Position numbers and translations under genes: made by a program. DNA of 36,610 nucleotides from Streptomyces griseus (lineage in GTDB: Bacteria > Actinomycetota > Actinomycetes > Streptomycetales > Streptomycetaceae): positions 1 to 36,610 of the forward strand of contig MUNB01000130.1 in assembly GCA_002154345.1 (NCBI GenBank), in the 5' to 3' direction. Within the stretch, counting starts at the first letter, position 1; every line of letters begins with the position of its first letter. The notes under the pieces are model-generated. The model had not been told where the DNA came from. It saw nothing but the letters and a program-made list of their open reading frames with translations, and ran no database searches. Shown here piece after piece: positions 26,703 to 35,316 of the stretch.

Positions 26703-27545
26703 GTGCCCGACAACGATCCGACCGCCGTGCCCGACGACGGACGGGAATCTCTGCGCGCGGACTGCACGAACTGCTTCGCCCTCTGCTGCGTCGCGCTCAC
26801 GCTGACGGCCTCGTCGGACTTCGCCATCGACAAGGACGCCGGACGCCCCTGCCCCAACCTCCAGGACGACTTCCGCTGCGGCATCCACACCAGGCTGCGA
26901 CCGAAGGGCTTCTCCGGCTGCACCGTGTACGACTGCTTCGGAGCCGGGCAGAAGGTCTCCCAGGAGACCTACGGAGGCCGCGACTGGCGCTCGTCCCCCG
27001 ACCTCGCCACCCAGATGTTCCAGGTGTTCCCGGTGATGCGCCAGCTCCATGAACTGCTGTGGTACCTCACCGAGGCCCTCACCTTGCCGGCCGCACGTTC
27101 CCTGCACGCCGAGATCCGCCGGGCCCTGGAAGCGACGCAACGGCACACCGAGCGGCCCGCCGTCGACTTCGCGGAACTGGACGTCGCCGGTCACCGCGAC
27201 CGGGTCGCCGGGCTGCTTCTGCGCACCAGCGAACTCGTCCGGGCCACCGCGCCCCGTCGCAAGAAGCGCAACCACCGCGGCGCCGACCTCATCGGGGCCC
27301 GGCTGCGGGGCGCCGACCTGCGCGGCGCGGACCTCCGCGGGGCCTATCTGATCGCAGCCGATCTCAGCGGCGCCGATCTCCGCCTGGCCGACCTCATCGG
27401 TGCGGACTTCCGCGACGCCGATCTCTCGGGCGCCGACCTGACAGGAAGCCTGTTCCTCACCCAGGCCCAGCTCAACGCGGCCAAGGGCAACGAGAAAACA
27501 ACTCTCCCCACCTCACTGAGCCGCCCCCCGCACTGGGCCGCCTAG
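26703..27545 (+). CDS. Cysteine-cluster / pentapeptide-repeat protein
   Basis: A 280-residue cytoplasmic protein. The N-terminal part has cysteines C21, C24, C28, C29, C50, C59, C73 and C78 in a CxxCxxxCC start like YkgJ-type metal or iron-sulfur-binding domains. A helical middle (FQVFPVMRQLHELLWYLTEAL) and a basic linker (APRRKKRNH) follow. From about residue 195 to 255 there are some 12 A(D/R/Y)LxG pentapeptide repeats that would form a right-handed quadrilateral helix. Pentapeptide proteins can mimic DNA (gyrase protection), but the combination with a Cys cluster points to another role. GTG 26703 follows GAGGA; TAGACT at 26641 may be its -10 box. The stop overlaps that of the convergent SRPBCC gene (CTAG, 27542-27545). 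Confidence 0.88.
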   Translation: MPDNDPTAVPDDGRESLRADCTNCFALCCVALTLTASSDFAIDKDAGRPCPNLQDDFRCGIHTRLRPKGFSGCTVYDCFGAGQKVSQETYGGRDWRSSPDLATQMFQVFPVMRQLHELLWYLTEALTLPAARSLHAEIRRALEATQRHTERPAVDFAELDVAGHRDRVAGLLLRTSELVRATAPRRKKRNHRGADLIGARLRGADLRGADLRGAYLIAADLSGADLRLADLIGADFRDADLSGADLTGSLFLTQAQLNAAKGNEKTTLPTSLSRPPHWAA

Positions 27546-28060
27546 CTCTCGGCATCTCGGGCGTCCGCCTCCAGTGCTGCCTTGAGACGCTTCAGCGTCG
27601 TACGGATGTTGCCGCCCTGGAACTGCGCAAAGGTCTTGCCGCCCGTCGCGACGCGGTCGAAGGCGTTGGCGAGGAAGTCCGGCCAGCGACGGCGGTCGTC
27701 GGTCCAGGTCTCAGTGACCAGGGTCGCTCCGTCCACCGCTTCGAAACGGTATTCCCAGGTGGCGATCGGCCCCGGGAGCACCGGGCGTCGGATGCCGATC
27801 GCATGGACCCGGAAGGCGAAGCGCTCGCCGGGTTCCGCCGCCGTCACCGTGCACCGTGTCGTCCAGCGCGCCGCGCCGCGCTTGTTCCGGCCGTCGAAGA
27901 CCATGCCGACGTATGCGCCGCGCCGATCGCCACGCACAGTCGCTCCCCGGTTCTCGGGGCTCCAACGCCCCATCGCCGTAGGGTCGCTGAGCTGTTCGTA
28001 GATCCGCGCCGGGGTGGCGGCGATGACGATGCTGTCCGCTACGGACATGGTGCGGGGCAT
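27542..28060 (-). CDS. SRPBCC-family (START/Bet v1-like) protein
   Basis: A 172-residue protein with a helix-grip fold, a hydrophobic ligand-binding type. Family marks are MSVADSIVIAATPARIYEQLSDPTAMGRWSPE at the start, RWTTRCTVTAAEPGERFAFRV and the C-terminal long helix NIRTTLKRLKAALEA. AAGGAG lies about 8 bp before ATG 28060. It resembles polyketide cyclase/dehydrase-like and AHSA1-type proteins, but no biosynthetic genes surround it and its ligand is unknown. A TACTC-GT-GAGTA dyad upstream (28146-28157) may be its operator. Confidence 0.9.
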   Translation of the reverse strand: MPRTMSVADSIVIAATPARIYEQLSDPTAMGRWSPENRGATVRGDRRGAYVGMVFDGRNKRGAARWTTRCTVTAAEPGERFAFRVHAIGIRRPVLPGPIATWEYRFEAVDGATLVTETWTDDRRRWPDFLANAFDRVATGGKTFAQFQGGNIRTTLKRLKAALEADARDAES

Positions 28061-28145
28061 GGCGCGACTCCTTGTCCACGGCCGTCGTCGGACCACGTCC
28101 GGGTGCCGTACGGACCGTGGGGCCGACATCCCGGAACCTCTACCT

Positions 28146-28197: not shown

Positions 28198-28788
28198 TCA
28201 ACGGGTCCGTCGCTCCCGGCGGTTCGCGACCCGTATCCGTACGTCGGCGGGCAGGGCCTGTATGCCGCTGCTGTCGCGGGCGTCCGTGATGACTCCGGCC
28301 ACGGAACGCGCGACCTCCGCCGGCCGGGCTTCGGGCTCCACGACGACCGTCACCGCCACCCGCAACGGGCGGCCCACCAGGCGCACCCGAGCACGCGCCA
28401 CGTCGTCGAACGCCGCCACCTGCGTTGTCATCGCCCGCTCCCACGCACGTCTGCGCAGCACCGGTCCGGTCCGCGGCAGCACCGCCCACCGAGGTCCGCC
28501 GGACACCGCCTGTCGGGCCAACCACCACACCAGCAGCACCAGTACGACAGAGAGACCGGCGATCACGGCGGGACTCCACCAGCCGTTCTCCCGGAGCCGT
28601 GCCGACAGCTCTCGGTCCAGCAACACCCCGTCCGCCGCAGGCGACGGCCACCAGCGCGGCACACGGCCTCCCACCGGGCCCCACGCCGAACCGTCGCCCA
28701 CGGCCAGCCAGCTGCCGCCCACGATCAGCACCAACCCGACGGCACCGAGCAGCGACCGGTTCACCACGCCGCGCCTGATCACCGACAT
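28198..28788 (-). CDS. amaP: Alkaline-shock membrane anchor AmaP
   Basis: A 196-residue membrane protein that in Gram-positive bacteria anchors Asp23 to the cytoplasmic membrane. Two N-terminal spans (about residues 10-30 and 72-92) are followed by a cytoplasmic part. This carries AWERAMTTQVAAFDDVARARVRLVGRPLRVAVTVVVEP and EVARSVAGVITDARDSSGI, an Asp23-like alpha/beta fold. It is the last gene of the four-gene minus-strand operon, 4 bp after the Asp23/DUF6286-like gene. Its co-occurrence with Asp23 supports the assignment; sequence identity alone is modest. Confidence 0.88.
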   Translation of the reverse strand: MSVIRRGVVNRSLLGAVGLVLIVGGSWLAVGDGSAWGPVGGRVPRWWPSPAADGVLLDRELSARLRENGWWSPAVIAGLSVVLVLLVWWLARQAVSGGPRWAVLPRTGPVLRRRAWERAMTTQVAAFDDVARARVRLVGRPLRVAVTVVVEPEARPAEVARSVAGVITDARDSSGIQALPADVRIRVANRRERRTR

Positions 28789-28792
28789 TTAC

Positions 28793-29833
28793 TCACACCT
28801 CTTTCCGTTCAGCCGAAGCCGAAGCCGAAGCCGAAGCCGAAGCCGAAGCCGTCGAGGCTGCCGTGTGAACCCTCGGCTCCTCGGTCGACGGCGGCTGCCC
28901 GTGCAGTTCACCCCGGGGCCGCACTCGGATCCGGACCCGGGGCGTAGGCGTCCGCGTCAGGCCCAGCTCCGGCAGGGCCGATCCCACGACCCGGACCACC
29001 TCGGCCTCCACCTGATCCGGGTCACCGAACCCCACCTCTGCCAGCACTCTCAGACGCCGCCGCCCTGCGTTCACCCGGGCCCGGACCACTCCTGGCACGG
29101 CGGTGGTCCTGTCCTGGACGACGCGGGCGGCGGCCGTACGGTCGAGCGCGGCCCGCAACCGCGGCGTGGGCACGGTCATCTCCAGCCCGCGACGCAACCC
29201 CGGAAGCAGAGCGCACCCCAGCAGCCAGAGCCCGATCAGCGCTGCCAGCACCCCGCCGGCCCGTACCGCCGTGTCCGCCGGGCCGTGTGTCGATGCCCAG
29301 TCGACCAGCCAGGTCCGCCAGGTGGCGGGCGTGCTGCCGAGCCGGACCGCGATGAGGTCCACCAGGAGCAGCGCACAGCCCGCGGCCCCCACAGCAGCCG
29401 TCACCGCAGCGGGGACCCGGCGCTGCGCGCGAATGCGGCCACCCTTGCCGACGCTCCCTCTGAGGTGCTCCGCCTCGCGAGCCGGATCGTCGGCCGTTGG
29501 TGGCTCACCGTCCGCTGGTTGCCGGGCGGGTGGCGCCGGAAGCACCGAGAGCGCGTCGATACGGATGTCCGTGCGCGGAACGGACAGGCCCGTGAGAGAG
29601 GCTGTCCGGGTCTGTGCGTGTTCACGGACCCGTCCGGCCGCCTCATCGGCCCGCACCGGATACAGCAGCCGCACGCCGAGCGACACCCGTGCCGAGGCGC
29701 CGCGCACCGAGGCCGAACCCCGAGTCACCACGCTGCCGTCGGGCAGCGCCTCGCCCGCCGCCCGCTCGGCGATCCGTCGGACGGCGCGGGGCGCCACCGT
29801 CGTCCTGCCACGCTCGGTGGCCGGGACCGTCAT
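28793..29833 (-). CDS. Asp23-like membrane protein with DUF6286-type C-terminus
   Basis: A 346-residue membrane protein. Residues about 8-100 resemble Asp23/Gls24 (TTVAPRAVRRIAERAAGEALP, VSLGVRLLYPVRADEAAGRVREHAQ). A basic linker, then two spans near 150-175 and 205-230, follow. The C-terminal cytoplasmic part (TPRLRAALDRTAAARVVQDR and VNAGRRRLRVLAEVGFGDPDQVEAEV) repeats an Asp23-like shape. The last 40 residues hold an (Ala-Ser)n tract from a hexanucleotide repeat. ATG 29833 overlaps the stop of the preceding gene (ATGA, 29830-29833). It probably helps to anchor or arrange Asp23 under the membrane. Confidence 0.88.
   Translation of the reverse strand: MTVPATERGRTTVAPRAVRRIAERAAGEALPDGSVVTRGSASVRGASARVSLGVRLLYPVRADEAAGRVREHAQTRTASLTGLSVPRTDIRIDALSVLPAPPARQPADGEPPTADDPAREAEHLRGSVGKGGRIRAQRRVPAAVTAAVGAAGCALLLVDLIAVRLGSTPATWRTWLVDWASTHGPADTAVRAGGVLAALIGLWLLGCALLPGLRRGLEMTVPTPRLRAALDRTAAARVVQDRTTAVPGVVRARVNAGRRRLRVLAEVGFGDPDQVEAEVVRVVGSALPELGLTRTPTPRVRIRVRPRGELHGQPPSTEEPRVHTAASTASASASASASASAERKEV
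28811..28850 (+). repeat. Hexanucleotide microsatellite (AGCCGA)6.7
   Basis: Six perfect AGCCGA units and a partial seventh. On the minus strand they encode alternating Ala and Ser near the C-terminus of the membrane protein. Slippage would add or remove two residues without a frameshift. Confidence 0.9.
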
Positions 29834-30057
29834 GGCCGGCGCCCCGTCACCGCGTCCAGGAACTCGCGCAGGCCGGTGCCCCGGTCCACAAGGTGCCCGG
29901 CGAACCATCCCACCGCGCCGAGCGACGCGACCACGAGAAACGCCCCGAACCCGCCGAACCAGCCTGCGAACCCCAGTGCCATGCCCGCCGCCGCCCCGAA
30001 CACTCCCCGGCCCGGCCCACCGCCCGCCGGGCCGGATTGGTCCATGCTCCGTGTCAC
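29830..30057 (-). CDS. Small membrane protein of the Asp23 operon (DUF2273-like)
   Basis: A 75-residue protein. Residues about 19-58 form two close Gly/Ala-rich membrane segments (AAAGMALGFAGWFGGFGAFLV, here quoted in part, and ASLGAVGWFAGHLVD). It looks like the small integral membrane proteins (DUF2273-type) that sit between asp23 and amaP in Gram-positive operons. GTG 30057 is the first start; ATG 30045 (MDQSGPAGG) is a good alternative. Gaps are 4 bp to the asp23 gene and a 4-bp overlap with the gene downstream. Confidence 0.78.
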   Translation of the reverse strand: MTRSMDQSGPAGGGPGRGVFGAAAGMALGFAGWFGGFGAFLVVASLGAVGWFAGHLVDRGTGLREFLDAVTGRRP

Positions 30058-30061
30058 GCCG

Positions 30062-30586
30062 TCACGCCACGCGGGTCTCGGACACGGCGGCCTCGTCGTC
30101 GTCCTCGGGCAGATGCACGTCGTTGACCGTCACATTGACCTCGACGACCTCAAGGCCCGTGGTGCGCTCCACGGCCGCGATGACGTTCTCGCGGACGTCG
30201 TGCGCCACATCGGTGATCGCGACCCCGTACTCGACGACGAGGTCGAGATCGATGGCCGTCTGGCGCTCGCCCACCTCGACCTTGACGCCCCGACCGACGT
30301 TCGGCCGGCCGCCCGGCACCCGGTCGCGGACCGCGCCGAGGGTGCGGGAGAGGCCGCCGCCCATGTCGTGGACGCCCGGGATCTCGCGAGCCGCCATGCC
30401 CGCGATCTTCACGACGACCGTGTCCGCGATGGAAGTGCGGCCCCGTGTCGCCGCCGGCTCGGCCGCCCCGGTGGCCCCGCTGCCGAGGGTGGTCGTCCCG
30501 CCCGTCGAGCCGACCTGCTTCGTCCCTGCCGTCCGCGAAGCCGCGCTCGTGGCGGGCACGGTCGCTGCTGTCTGGGTGGTGGTCAT
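30062..30586 (-). CDS. Asp23/Gls24 envelope stress protein
   Basis: A 174-residue cytoplasmic protein of the family that forms a network under the membrane and is strongly induced by envelope or alkaline stress. The first 48 residues are Thr/Ala/Gly-rich and disordered. The Asp23 domain (49-160) shows TSIADTVVVKIAGMAAREIPGVHDM, VKVEVGERQTAIDLDLVVEYGV, AHDVRENVIAAVERTTGLEVVEVNVTVNDVHLP. The ATG is preceded by GAGGAG. It heads the minus-strand operon, and the proposed ECF-type promoter is centred about 60 bp upstream (30630-30661). Confidence 0.95.
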   Translation of the reverse strand: MTTTQTAATVPATSAASRTAGTKQVGSTGGTTTLGSGATGAAEPAATRGRTSIADTVVVKIAGMAAREIPGVHDMGGGLSRTLGAVRDRVPGGRPNVGRGVKVEVGERQTAIDLDLVVEYGVAITDVAHDVRENVIAAVERTTGLEVVEVNVTVNDVHLPEDDDEAAVSETRVA

Positions 30587-30629
30587 GGAAACTCCTCGCG
30601 TCTCGCTCGGCTCGTTGTGCCTGACATTT

Positions 30630-30661
30630 CGTTGGACACGCCGTCCGACGATTCGTCACGC
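30630..30661 (-). promoter_or_regulatory. Bipartite ECF-type promoter element of the asp23 operon
   Basis: Read on the minus strand it starts GCGTGACG and ends GTGTCCAACG with 14 intervening bases differing from the partner element; total length is 32 bp. The plus-strand element at 30739-30770 has the same two blocks at the same spacing. A TGTCC-like -10 with a GTGAC-like -35 suits an ECF sigma factor. The predicted transcript start is near 30624, about 38 bp before the ATG. Confidence 0.6.
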
Positions 30662-30738
30662 GGGTTCGCGGAAATTTCCCGCGAGCCGGACCGCCGCGGG
30701 CGGCGGCCGACCGTGCCCCGCACAAAACCTCGCACGGT

Positions 30739-30770
30739 GCGTGACGTTCGGCCGCGGCGTGTGTCCAACG
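30739..30770 (+). promoter_or_regulatory. Bipartite ECF-type promoter element of the sigma operon
   Basis: Starts GCGTGACG and ends GTGTCCAACG, total 32 bp, in the opposite orientation to 30630-30661. Eighteen bases in the two end blocks are identical; the middle differs. It implies a 5' leader of about 90 bp before GTG 30869. Confidence 0.6.
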
Positions 30771-30868
30771 ACGAGAAGCGGTCATGAGGACGCGTGGAGA
30801 GTCATGCACCGGACGCGAACAGAGGCAGGAGCGAGGGTCGTGGAAGCGAGCGGGGAAGGGGTTGGTCC

Positions 30869-31456
30869 GTGCCCGGCGACGGGAATCAGCTGACGGAGCG
30901 CGCACCGGACGTCGTGCCGGCCGACGAGGCGCTGCTCGTCGTGCGGGCCGGGGAGGGCGACGAGGAGGCCTTCGAGGTGCTGGTGCGCAGGCACAGCCCC
31001 GCCATGCTGCAACTGGCGATACGCCTTCTCGGCGACCGGTCGGATGCCGAGGACGCCGTGCAGGACGCCTTCGTGAACGCCTGGCGCAAGCTTCCCGAGT
31101 TCCGTAGGGACGCCTCCTTCCACACGTGGCTCTACCGGATCGTCACCAACCGCTGTCTCAACCGGCTCAGAGCCCGCAGACCGGCGGCCGACCTGGACTC
31201 GGTGCCCGAGCAGGCCGCCCCCGAGCACCAGGCGTCCCCTGCCCGAGCGGTGGAGTCACGGGCCGCCGTCGACGCGCTGGCCGAGGCGATGGCGGAGCTC
31301 TCACCCGAACAACGTGTGTGCTGGGTGCTGCGCGAGATGCAGGGACTGTCGTACGAGAGCATCGCGGCAACGGTCGGAATCAGTCTGCAGGCGGTTCGGG
31401 GCCGGGTCTTCCGTGCCCGCCGCTCCCTGACGGAGGCGATGAGCGCATGGCGATGA
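30869..31456 (+). CDS. ECF RNA polymerase sigma factor
   Basis: A 195-residue sigma-70-family factor. Region 2 spans about residues 25-95 (EEAFEVLVRRHSPAMLQLAIRLLGD, then DAEDAVQDAFVNAWRKL and FHTWLYRIVTNRCLNRLR). Region 4 spans about 135-190 (MAELSPEQRVCWVLREMQGLSYESIAATVGIS, quoted in part, with VRGRVFRARRSL as recognition helix). There is no region 1 or 3, as is usual for ECF factors. GTG 30869 has GGGGAAGGGG upstream; a frame open from 30794 has poor codons. Its TGA overlaps the next gene (ATGA, 31453-31456), which carries an anti-sigma zinc motif. It probably transcribes both divergent operons. Confidence 0.94.
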   Translation: MPGDGNQLTERAPDVVPADEALLVVRAGEGDEEAFEVLVRRHSPAMLQLAIRLLGDRSDAEDAVQDAFVNAWRKLPEFRRDASFHTWLYRIVTNRCLNRLRARRPAADLDSVPEQAAPEHQASPARAVESRAAVDALAEAMAELSPEQRVCWVLREMQGLSYESIAATVGISLQAVRGRVFRARRSLTEAMSAWR

Positions 31457-32178
31457 GCGCCAATCCGGACCGGCCGGAGGAGAGCCGGTACGAAGATGAG
31501 GACGAGCGGCTGGCCTGCGGGCGGCTGCTCACCGACGTCTGGGAGGCCGGGGACACCGGCCGCTCGACGGACGACCCCCACTTCGCCACCTGCCCCTTCT
31601 GCTCGGCCGCGCTGGCCGACCTCACGGGCCTCGGCGACGCGGTGCGACGCACCTGCGCGCAGGAGCCGGGCACACCGGACGCCACGGCCGTGACCGCCCG
31701 CGTCATGGACCTCGTACGCCTCGAACTGCGGCCGGGACGCCCACTGCCGCTCGGGGAAGCGGGGGAGGACCACTGGATGGTCGAGGCCGCCGTCGCGCGG
31801 ATGCTGCGGTCGGCGGTCGACGGGCTGCCCGGGGTCCGGGCCGGTAGCTGTCGCATCGCCCCGCTCGACCCGGCGGACCCCGCCGGAGAGCTGCACGTCC
31901 GGGTCGAGGTCGCGGCGAGCATCAGCCTGCCCATGCGGGACCTGGCCGACGATGTGCGCGCGCGGATCGCCGAGGTCGCCGACCGGGACATCGGCATCCG
32001 CCTCGCCACCACCGATGTGTTCGTCGTCGACATCCTCGACCCTCCCGACACTCTCGACATCTTCTACGAGGACGTCGGACACACCCGGTACGGGGACGGG
32101 GAGGACGGCACGGGAGTGGCCACCGGCGATCACGCGGACGGCCGGGCGGACGGACATGGGACGGGAGCAGTGCGATGA
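31453..32178 (+). CDS. Zinc anti-sigma (ZAS-like) protein fused to an Asp23-like domain
   Basis: A 241-residue cytoplasmic protein. Near the N-terminus C22 and the motif H43-x3-C47-x2-C50 (in PHFATCPFC) match the zinc anti-sigma pattern, in which an upstream Cys and the Hx3Cx2C group hold one zinc, as in RsrA. Residues about 105-200 look like Asp23/Gls24 (MVEAAVARMLRSAVDGLPGV, VRVEVAASISLPMRDLADDVRARIAEVADRDIG). The acidic His/Gly-rich tail is disordered. Start ATG 31453 overlaps the sigma gene stop; ATG 31447 is also in frame. It has no membrane segment. I infer that it binds the sigma factor and releases it on envelope or redox stress. The usual annotation would see only the Asp23 domain. 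Confidence 0.85.
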   Translation: MSANPDRPEESRYEDEDERLACGRLLTDVWEAGDTGRSTDDPHFATCPFCSAALADLTGLGDAVRRTCAQEPGTPDATAVTARVMDLVRLELRPGRPLPLGEAGEDHWMVEAAVARMLRSAVDGLPGVRAGSCRIAPLDPADPAGELHVRVEVAASISLPMRDLADDVRARIAEVADRDIGIRLATTDVFVVDILDPPDTLDIFYEDVGHTRYGDGEDGTGVATGDHADGRADGHGTGAVR

Positions 32179-32522
32179 CCGCGGACACACGACGGGACCG
32201 GCTGGCCGAGGCAGCTGCCGAGGCCGCTCGGGGTGTGCTGGGCGTGGCGTTTCTCCGTCCCGGCGTGGCGGACCTGCTGCGCACGCGGATCACCGGCCGT
32301 ACCCCGCTCCGCACCCACCTCACCGGGAACAGGACGTCGGGAGTGCGGGTCAGCCGGGATGAGGGCGACGGCTGGCACCTCGACATCCGACTCGTCCTGC
32401 GCAGCGGTCACCGGGCGCTCGATGTGACCCGGCTCGTGCAGAAAGCGGTCCTCGCCGCGCTGCCTGACGAACAGGAGGAACAAGCGGTCTCGGTGCGGAT
32501 CACCGTGACCGGAGTGGTCTGA
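32175..32522 (+). CDS. Small Asp23-like protein
   Basis: A 115-residue cytoplasmic protein that overlaps the preceding gene in an ATGA (32175-32178), so the third gene of the sigma operon. The N-terminal helix (RLAEAAAEAARGVLGVAFLRPGVADLLRTRI) is followed by strands (SGVRVSRDEGDGWHLDIRLVLRSGHRALDVTRLVQKAVLAALP, quoted in two parts here: residues about 54-78 and 79-97) and a final VSVRITVTGVV. This order matches an Asp23 fold lacking one helix, though identity is weak. It may form mixed complexes with Asp23 or the anti-sigma protein. Confidence 0.8.
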   Translation: MTADTRRDRLAEAAAEAARGVLGVAFLRPGVADLLRTRITGRTPLRTHLTGNRTSGVRVSRDEGDGWHLDIRLVLRSGHRALDVTRLVQKAVLAALPDEQEEQAVSVRITVTGVV

Positions 32523-33272: not shown

Positions 33273-33585
33273 GGATCCGACCTTCCGAGCTAGCCGAGTG
33301 GAGAGAAGTGGAGAGAAGCGAAAGAGCGAGGTGGTTCTGTCGGTTCACCAACTCCGGGGCCGGAGACGCTATTCCGTTCTCCGTGAGGGAATATTCGGTC
33401 GGCTCCCGGACGTTTACGTGCATTTTCGGTTGTGTCGGCCGAGGACGGAGCGTTGGCCGTAGGCCATTTGAGTGTCCTTGTCGGCCGCTCGCGCCGGACG
33501 GGGAAGGATGTCCCACCGCACCGATCGCCAGGGGTCCATTCTGGTCGCCGAGTCCACACGGGCCGTCGATCGAAGGAGCGTCGTA
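33273..33585. other. Gene-free 313-bp divergent region
   Basis: Contains a tandem AGTGGAGAGA duplication (33297-33316), a TATTCC-N12-GGAATA dyad (33370-33393) with adjoining GAATATTC palindrome, and an AT-rich stretch to about 33430. One of these is likely to control ctaD or the reductase gene. No promoter boxes are certain. Confidence 0.55.
33297..33316 (+). repeat. Two 10-bp AGTGGAGAGA units
   Basis: Perfect tandem duplication about 25 bp upstream of the reductase start codon. Confidence 0.8.
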
Positions 33586-35316
33586 GTGACGACGAGGGGC
33601 ATCTCGCAACCGGTGGAGACCGATACCGCCGAACAGAACGAAATGCCGGTACGGCGCGGGGAACCCGGCAACGTCATCATCAAGTGGATGACCTCGACGG
33701 ACCACAAGACGATCGGCACGCTCTACCTCGTCACCTCCTTCGCGTTCTTCTGTGTGGGAGGGCTCCTGGCCCTGGTGATGCGCGCCGAACTGGCCCGGCC
33801 CGGTATCCAGCTGCTCTCGAACGAGCAGTTCAACCAGGCGTTCACGATGCACGGCACGATCATGCTGCTGATGTTCGCGACGCCGCTATTCGCCGGATTC
33901 GCGAACTGGATCATGCCGCTGCAGATCGGCGCGCCCGACGTGGCGTTCCCGCGGCTGAACATGTTCGCGTACTGGCTCTATCTCTTCGGCTCGCTCATCG
34001 CGGTGGCCGGCTTCCTCACTCCGCAGGGAGCCGCGGACTTCGGCTGGTTCGCCTACGCCCCGCTCAACGACGCGGTCCGCTCGCCGGGCATCGGCGCCGA
34101 CATGTGGATCATGGGTCTGGCCTTCTCCGGCTTCGGCACGATCCTCGGCTCGGTCAACTTCATCACCACGATCATCTGCATGCGAGCCCCCGGCATGACG
34201 ATGTTCCGCATGCCGATCTTCGTCTGGAACGTCCTGTTGACCGGTGTTCTGGTCCTGCTGGCCTTCCCGGTCCTCGCCGCGGCTCTGCTGGCGCTGGAGG
34301 CCGACCGTAAATTCGGCGCGCACGTCTTCGACGCGGCCAATGGTGGCGCACTGCTGTGGCAGCACCTTTTCTGGTTCTTCGGCCACCCCGAGGTCTACAT
34401 CATCGCCCTGCCGTTCTTCGGCATCGTCACCGAGATCTTCCCGGTATTCAGCCGTAAACCCGTCTTCGGCTACATCGGACTGGTCGCGGCCACCATCGCC
34501 ATCGCGGGCCTTTCCGCGACCGTATGGGCGCACCACATGTTCGTCACGGGCGCCGTGCTGTTGCCGTTCTTCTCCTTCATGACCTTCCTCATCGCCGTGC
34601 CGACCGGTGTGAAGTTCTTCAACTGGATCGGCACGATGTGGAAGGGGTCGCTGTCCCTGGAGACCCCGATGCTGTGGGCCATCGGGTTCCTGGTCACCTT
34701 CCTGTTCGGCGGTCTGACCGGGATCATCCTCGCCTCACCGCCGATGGACTTCCATGTCTCCGACTCGTACTTCGTCGTCGCCCACTTCCATTACGTGGTG
34801 TTCGGCACGGTGGTGTTCGCGATGTTCGCCGGATTCCATTTCTGGTGGCCGAAGTTCACCGGGAAAATGCTGGACGAGCGGCTCGGGAAGGTGACGTTCT
34901 GGACGCTCTTCATCGGGTTCCACGGAACGTTCCTCGTGCAGCACTGGCTCGGCGCCGAAGGCATGCCACGCCGTTACGCCGACTATCTCGACGCCGACGG
35001 ATTCACCGCGCTGAACACCATCTCCACCATTTCCTCGTTCCTGCTCGGCCTGTCGATCCTTCCGTTCTTCTACAACATCTGGAAGACCGCCAAGTACGGC
35101 AAGAAGATCGAGGTCGACGATCCGTGGGGTTACGGCCGTTCGCTGGAGTGGGCGACCTCCTGCCCGCCGCCCCGGCACAACTTCGTCACGCTGCCCCGGA
35201 TCCGTTCCGAGTCCCCGGCGTTCGACCTGCACCACCCGGCGGTCCGCTCCCTGGAGGAAGCCGCCACCCGTCCCGGGGACTCCACGATCGTCGCCCCGGG
35301 GGACAAGCAGGAGTGA
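33586..35316 (+). CDS. ctaD: Cytochrome c oxidase subunit I (aa3-type)
   Basis: A 576-residue, 12-helix haem-copper oxidase subunit that reduces oxygen to water and pumps protons. Visible ligands are His in [10 protein letters not shown] (low-spin haem), [13 protein letters not shown] with the cross-linked His-Tyr pair, WAHHMFVTG (Cu-B) and HFHYVVFG (haem ligands). A proton-channel Asn/Asp segment occurs as [11 protein letters not shown], and [19 protein letters not shown] is conserved. All key residues are present. GTG 33586 follows GAAGGAG; the frame open from 33472 is a shadow. No ctaC, ctaE, ctaF or cytochrome bc1 gene is close, so this is a stand-alone paralogue of the main oxidase cluster gene, perhaps for a special growth condition. 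Confidence 0.95.

Follow-up and report, generated by a model that had tools for sequence, protein, structure and literature searches.

A predicted soluble zinc-type anti-sigma factor with an Asp23-like domain beside an extracytoplasmic function sigma factor gene in Streptomyces griseus

The stretch of DNA analysed here (36,610 nt of Streptomyces griseus, referred to as the window) is part of contig C36 in a draft genome of 7.82 Mb and harbours, at positions 31453–32178, a gene that overlaps the 3' end of an extracytoplasmic function (ECF) sigma factor gene. Its product is very probably a soluble zinc-type anti-sigma factor, with ligands in the order Cys-His-Cys-Cys (CHCC), for the adjoining sigma factor, which would in turn drive its own operon and a divergently oriented asp23 operon. 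This reading is based on comparative sequence analysis and on a structure model made with AlphaFold2 (AF2). The features that carry it are the following:

30869..31456, + strand: ECF sigma factor gene, regions 2 and 4 only (Pfam Sigma70_r2 75.9 bits, r4_2 49.6 bits)
30869, + strand: likely GTG start of the sigma factor gene; the longest frame begins at GTG 30794, and the annotated start of the relative L035 aligns with residue 26 of this long frame, that is with 30869
31453..32178, + strand: candidate anti-sigma factor gene, 241 amino acids (translation, AF2 model, conservation)
Parts of the candidate anti-sigma factor: zinc module to about residue 96, Asp23-like domain at about 97–195, then a low-confidence tail (AF2)
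31516..31602, + strand: CHCC set, from the codon of C22 to that of C50 (C22, H43, C47, C50)
31849..31851, + strand: codon of Cys133, within the Asp23-like domain (alignment)

Relatives of the protein were gathered from genome profile searches together with five plasmid loci and fetched regions, the window's own copies (L001–L003, L079, L080 and L104) being excluded and identical proteins counted once. This gave 136 unique proteins; the 144 loci include places fetched twice, and L038 is the same as L055. Full-length matches were taken where a locus was given or had been requested, fragmented or stop-bearing ones (for example G112:C811, G113, G135, G054, G271 and G338) being left out. The 19 relatives read that lack the N-terminal module (the 15 best-scoring ones from the first search and four from the second) are a selection from many matches without it. 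The first alignment was made without the duplicates L004, L048, L050 and L055, the window standing for L004. Nine relatives carry a species name, all of them Streptomyces and including S. durocortorensis, S. griseus, S. microflavus and S. cyaneofuscatus (identity 67–84%).

The comparison revealed a close tie between the module and the sigma factor gene. Among the unique proteins 115 have both the module and a sigma factor gene, 19 have neither and two (L141 and L142) have the module alone, so that a sigma factor gene lies directly upstream of 115 of the 117 proteins with the module and of none of the 19 read without it; counted by locus, this is 123 of 125 against 0 of 19. For L141 and L142 no sigma factor gene was detectable in the fetched stretch, and orphan inhibitors or decayed loci are candidate readings of these two. 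L141 also seems to continue into a stretch similar to the product of the third gene of the operon.

A preliminary description of the region, made from the letters alone, had pointed out C22 and H43-x3-C47-x2-C50 in the product of the second gene, and this numbering is right when the 241 amino acids are read from 31453. The motif is conserved beyond chance, C22 being present in 117, H43 in 113, C47 in 116 and C50 in 117 of the 117 unique proteins that contain the module. The aligned histidine is lost in L057 (Tyr), L137 (Ser), L037 (shortened at this place) and L144 (by eye, a His one residue nearer), and C47 only in L128, where it is replaced by Arg. That description had proposed to look whether close orthologues lose the Cys/His set; the set is retained, a result that favours the anti-sigma reading. 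The alignment also brought out, unsought, a further residue, Cys133, which is Cys in all 117 proteins with the module while the 19 proteins that lack both module and sigma factor gene have Leu or Val at this position.

The two genes share the 4-bp overlap ATGA (31453–31456) that had been described before, or 10 bp if the earlier ATG at 31447 is used. When the start nearest to the sigma stop is taken, an overlap of 4 bp is found in 75 of 123 loci and one of 10 bp in 45. In none of these 123 loci are the sigma and anti-sigma genes in one phase; they overlap by 4, 10 or 37 bp or stand 2 bp apart, natural fusions not having been sought elsewhere.

Beyond the order, a class-wide search gave matches in 68 of 394 genomes, where 18 loci outside the order were read, the locus of further matches not being given. 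A sigma factor gene lies directly upstream in each of the 18, and by eye 13 of them retain H-x3-C-x2-C; in L257 the part that was read shows no module. Twelve of the 18 have Cys133, which is absent from L260, L266, L268 and L270 and also from L265 and L269, in which the zinc set is intact. Since the order proteins without the aligned histidine (L057, L137, L037 and L144) retain Cys133, each feature occurs without the other and the link between them is not a strict one. Many matches outside the order were flagged with one internal TGA, and selenocysteine was considered and rejected, the TGA in those read being the normal termination codon, close to where the match ends.

The AF2 model has a mean predicted local distance difference test score (pLDDT) of 78.6 and a predicted template modelling score of 0.52, with a pLDDT of 92–95 for residues 21–60 and of 68–73 for residues 71–100. 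Helices were predicted at residues 26–35, 42–46, 48–70 and 77–92, together with a short one at 9–15. C22 is located just before helix 26–35, H43 in the second of the four helices, C47 between the second and the third and C50 inside the third. In the modelled sigma-bound form of RsrA the first Cys is situated at the start of helix I, the His in II, the next Cys between II and III and the last Cys in III (PMC4960319), and the four AF2 helices carry the ligands as described there for RsrA.

The module profile was also run on the six frames of 31 whole genomes, giving four members of the family and 65 other matches at E up to 1, for 26 of which the locus was available. At 15 of these 26 other loci the match sits 80–293 nt behind a sigma factor gene on the same strand, compared with 0 of 58 control points (29 loci of the genus with two points each, of which L223 and L230 hold a sigma factor gene, though not within 300 nt upstream of the point). 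At four loci (L193, L194, L196 and L217) a segment resembling the zinc module, DFGRLI/FRRLI...HxxxC-x-HC, was seen in frames of 525–586 amino acids that end in a ricin-type lectin domain; neither a sigma domain nor an upstream sigma factor gene was detected for these four.

Several results weigh against reading the module as a zinc anti-sigma domain. The three best outside matches of the module profile (L193, L217 and L194) have no sigma factor gene upstream, and H43 has been lost in L260, L266, L268 and L270, which belong to one family outside the order. Among 113 members the NCBIfam anti-sigma models were reached at E up to 1 by 17 (RsrA), eight (antisigmaE), six (antisigma) and three (ChrR), but none came near its cut-off, the best E-values being 0.001 for RsrA (TIGR03988, cut-off 62.5 bits) and 0.036 for ChrR (TIGR02451); the profile comparison with the families of zinc-binding anti-sigma (ZAS) domains and RsrA that had been suggested at the outset gave nothing over cut-off. 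The window's own module matches no NCBIfam family, copper-chaperone and glutaredoxin-like models of NCBIfam are reached by 8 and 6 of the 113 members, and the commonest Pfam matches of the module are unrelated ones (DUF7575 17/113, Glutaredoxin 13/113), while zf-HC2 (PF13490), at E up to 1, was found in two of 57 aligned relatives, with 0.034 as the best E-value and no match over cut-off. A sequence search of the PDB was led by eukaryotic zinc fingers, ranked above RslA (3hug, E 0.023), and was not used as support because the ranking was judged to be driven by composition. Foldseek with the model of the module gave eight matches with E-values of 3.8 or worse, none of them an anti-sigma factor. 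Alignment with hhalign to 30 RsrA pieces was colinear over 65 columns with a probability of 11%, a result equalled by 1 of 100 column-shuffled controls in which the zinc columns were kept. Covariation with the sigma factor was mildly raised, with 117 of the top 200 pairs in the N-terminal module and 65 in the Asp23 domain; the expected share of the module in these pairs is 47% (effective number of sequences about 60). Both the hhalign and the covariation results are too weak to decide.

The module is read here as a diverged ZAS domain, to which the sequences suggest homology. Since no curated model exceeds its cut-off, the protein is here described as working like a ZAS protein and not as a curated member of that family. 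The role as an anti-sigma factor, put forward as a possibility in the preliminary description, is well supported by the comparative evidence, that is by the co-occurrence of module and sigma factor gene, the ligands, the RsrA-like order of helices and a sequence element shared by the two operons. In the four proteins L260, L266, L268 and L270 the zinc His and Cys133 are both lost and the upstream sigma factor gene is retained, and a differently built version of the system may exist there.

The shared element and the genes that surround it are arranged as follows:

30741..30768, + strand: promoter-like element GTGACG-N15-TGTCCAA toward the sigma factor gene (genome pattern match, recurs in relatives)
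30632..30659, - strand: promoter-like element GTGACG-N15-TGTCCAA, of equal spacing, toward the asp23 operon (genome pattern match)
32175..32522, + strand: third gene, Asp23-only protein of 115 amino acids (Pfam Asp23 31.2 bits, cut-off 28), with an ATGA overlap with the anti-sigma gene
30062..30586, - strand: divergent asp23 gene, 174 amino acids (Pfam Asp23 107.7 bits)
29830..30057, - strand: hydrophobic protein of 75 amino acids, asp23 operon (open reading frame; hydropathy 1.84)
28793..29908, - strand: DUF6286 membrane protein, asp23 operon (Pfam DUF6286 82.3 bits; hydropathy 2.28)
28198..28788, - strand: AmaP-like membrane anchor protein, asp23 operon (NCBIfam AmaP 27.8 bits, under the cut-off of 55; hydropathy 2.38)

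A search of the 7.82-Mb genome with the pattern GTRACGN{14,17}TGTCCAA revealed exactly two matches, one before the sigma factor gene and one before the divergent asp23, and a single match for the backward control pattern. Relatives were counted over 114 non-redundant loci out of 115, one near a contig end being omitted. The element is exact in 32 of them, and 72 have it with at most one mismatch on one side or both (toward the sigma factor gene in 37, toward asp23 in 52 and on both sides in 17); within one mismatch it was not seen in the other 42 of the 114. Shuffled controls (one strand, mononucleotide) gave 0 of 2280 exact matches and 2 of 2280 with at most one mismatch. Before asp23, a best match with at most two mismatches was found in 40 of 51 loci with the sigma factor gene and in 0 of 15 loci without it. 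The element alone is not diagnostic, since the exact pattern is present somewhere in 82 of 199 genomes of the genus. A head-to-head pair of elements within about 150 nt was found in eight genomes (G000, G056, G066, G113, G126, G135, G162 and G178), in seven of which it lies on the contig of the family match, the pair of G113 being located on another contig.

The window's genome also holds a paralogous asp23 locus on contig C173 (L002), which codes for an Asp23-like protein that lacks the module and runs into a second Asp23-like stretch, and which has neither the element nor a sigma factor gene in the stretch fetched; this locus is a natural control. As the element occurs only at the two places named, the sigma factor probably drives its own operon and the Asp23 layer, and position and conservation make a promoter recognised by this sigma factor the best reading of the element.

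The preliminary description had also claimed an Asp23-like domain in place of a membrane segment, and this agrees with the further analysis. The highest hydropathy over 19 residues is 1.0 in the candidate anti-sigma factor, compared with 1.84, 2.28 and 2.38 for the divergent 75-residue, DUF6286 and AmaP-like proteins, and the candidate has no membrane segment. Values above 1.6 are seen in 8 of 117 relatives; in the five with the highest values the hydrophobic stretch falls, by eye, on the last strand of the Asp23-like domain. In Pfam the window protein alone gives only DUF6286 (E 0.083), its Asp23-like half being too divergent, while at E up to 1 Asp23 (PF03780) is matched by 40 of 57 aligned relatives, with a best E-value of 7.8e-7, and DUF6286 is matched by 37. 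Among the 50 matches listed by Foldseek for the whole AF2 model, PrgH/PrgK and the C-terminal domains of metal transporters (MamM, ZnT) lead and no anti-sigma factor is present, and these matches were judged to reflect the Asp23-like alpha/beta domain.

Of 115 loci, 112 have an open reading frame of at least 70 amino acids at the position of the third gene, and in 88 of the 112 it matches the window's third protein. In loci without the sigma factor gene the Asp23-like domain is followed by a stretch resembling this protein within one polypeptide (by eye, and as a second profile match in the C173 protein). This joining suggests that the products of genes 2 and 3 interact, and the Asp23-like domain of the candidate anti-sigma factor is probably paired with the Asp23-only third protein.

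In the mechanism proposed here the N-terminal helical module would hold the sigma factor wrapped about a structural zinc, in the manner of RsrA and ChrR, and the C-terminal Asp23-like domain would be the sensory or docking part. Freed sigma factor would read the GTGACG-N15-TGTCCAA promoters that stand before its own operon and before the asp23/DUF6286/amaP operon divergent from it, and the output would be more sigma factor, more inhibitor, more of the third gene product and more of the Asp23 envelope layer. As the candidate inhibitor is soluble, the signal would be cytoplasmic or at the inner face of the membrane. Thiol chemistry (C22, C47 and C50, perhaps with Cys133) may bring about the release, or the Asp23/AmaP layer may do so by capturing the Asp23-like domain; the two triggers are about equally plausible and both may act. 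That a thiol or zinc trigger is placed about level with assembly at the Asp23/AmaP layer is due to the CHCC type of the ligands and to the further conserved cysteine.

A purely redox signal as in RsrA would mean that a disulfide among C22, C47 and C50, or with Cys133, expels the zinc and frees the sigma factor, the Asp23-like domain merely tethering the protein near the envelope. The N-terminal ligand Cys, which in RsrA is required for oxidative release of the sigma factor according to PMC4960319, is present in 117 of 117 module proteins and so is Cys133, found in 0 of the 19 read without the module; but Cys133 is missing from L265 and L269 with their intact zinc sets and present in the His-lacking L057, L137, L037 and L144, and asp23/amaP, apparently the operon under control, serves the envelope and not thiol repair. 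This alternative is somewhat doubtful. Capture, in which Asp23, AmaP or the third protein is bound by the Asp23-like domain so that the state of the layer decides whether the sigma factor is held and the system measures the scaffold that it makes, is a reading to be taken seriously while falling short of a probable one. The sensory half groups by its Pfam matches (Asp23 and DUF6286) with the products of the divergent operon, the fusion of a gene-3-like stretch behind the Asp23-like domain in sigma-less loci suggests an interaction of the second and third proteins, and in Staphylococcus AmaP anchors the polymer-forming Asp23 to the membrane (PMC6954212), but a relation in fold is by itself no proof of binding.

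Both of these take the protein to be an inhibitor. It could instead be a zinc-bearing co-activator or adaptor that tethers the sigma factor or RNA polymerase to the Asp23 layer: the sequence gives no direction of control, standard models and the fold search do not place the module as an anti-sigma domain, and the best outside profile matches are lectin proteins without a sigma factor gene. In RsrA, ChrR and RslA, however, zinc modules that resemble this one in order and in following an ECF gene act as anti-sigma domains (PMC4960319), and 15 of the 26 other profile-matched loci are located behind sigma factor genes. A co-activator is very improbable. For the anti-sigma factor preferred here a self-reading circuit can further be imagined, in which a diverged copy of the structural protein of its own target operon senses the Asp23/AmaP lattice by trying to join it, with Cys133 adding a thiol input. 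This idea is speculative and rather unlikely; if true, one molecule would read both the integrity of the envelope and the thiol state.

The divergent sigma/asp23 arrangement is also annotated on five Streptomyces plasmids (L034–L038), which are linear, 202–678 kb in size, and carry the whole locus. A gene of the SRPBCC type is found close to the locus in three of the five, and the window has a Polyketide_cyc2 (SRPBCC-like) gene at 27542–28129. The frame at 33472–35316 resembles, by eye and with no search made, subunit I of cytochrome c oxidase.

The function of Asp23 is described as unclear even in Staphylococcus (PMC6954212), and a dedicated sigma factor, an inhibitor built partly like Asp23 and an apparent regulon of two promoters would together offer a compact genetic way into the question of what the Asp23 layer responds to. 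The prediction of Asp23-type anti-sigma factors would gain a concrete mechanism (a zinc module with CHCC ligands), residues that can be mutated and a sigma-less paralogue as a natural control in one genome.

As in Staphylococcus aureus, the system of the window has an Asp23-family domain and neighbouring asp23 and amaP-like genes. Staphylococcal asp23 is a SigB-dependent gene, and no ECF sigma factor or zinc module is known to belong to the Asp23/AmaP system there. With RsrA, the anti-sigma factor of SigR in Streptomyces, the candidate shares solubility, the CHCC set and, in the AF2 model, four helices in equal order (C11, H37, C41 and C44 in RsrA; PMC4960319), but RsrA has 105 amino acids and no further domain, its spacing is C-x25-H against C-x20-H here, and no significant sequence match was found between the two. 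ChrR, which acts on SigE of Rhodobacter, is likewise soluble and joins a zinc anti-sigma module to a sensor domain at its C-terminus (PMC4960319, PMC8999054), but with HHCC ligands and a cupin-like sensor (PMC4960319) in place of the CHCC set and the Asp23-like domain. A search of the Asp23, anti-sigma and ECF literature, at the level of titles and the beginnings of abstracts and with most subscription papers outside its coverage, found no description of the zinc module, of Cys133 or of the promoter among the papers listed. The nearest relatives in design are ECF286 and ECF292 (groups of Casas-Pastor 2021), in which an ECF sigma factor gene likewise stands beside a soluble Asp23-family neighbour predicted to be an anti-sigma factor, a prediction experimentally untested according to a 2022 review (PMC8999054). 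To call the present system a new sensing design, as was done at first, is too strong in this respect, while the zinc module, Cys133 and the shared promoter go beyond the description of ECF286 and ECF292 in PMC8999054. The system is thus known in outline, as a predicted anti-sigma factor of the Asp23 type, to which the present analysis adds an RsrA-type zinc module, Cys133 and the shared promoter.

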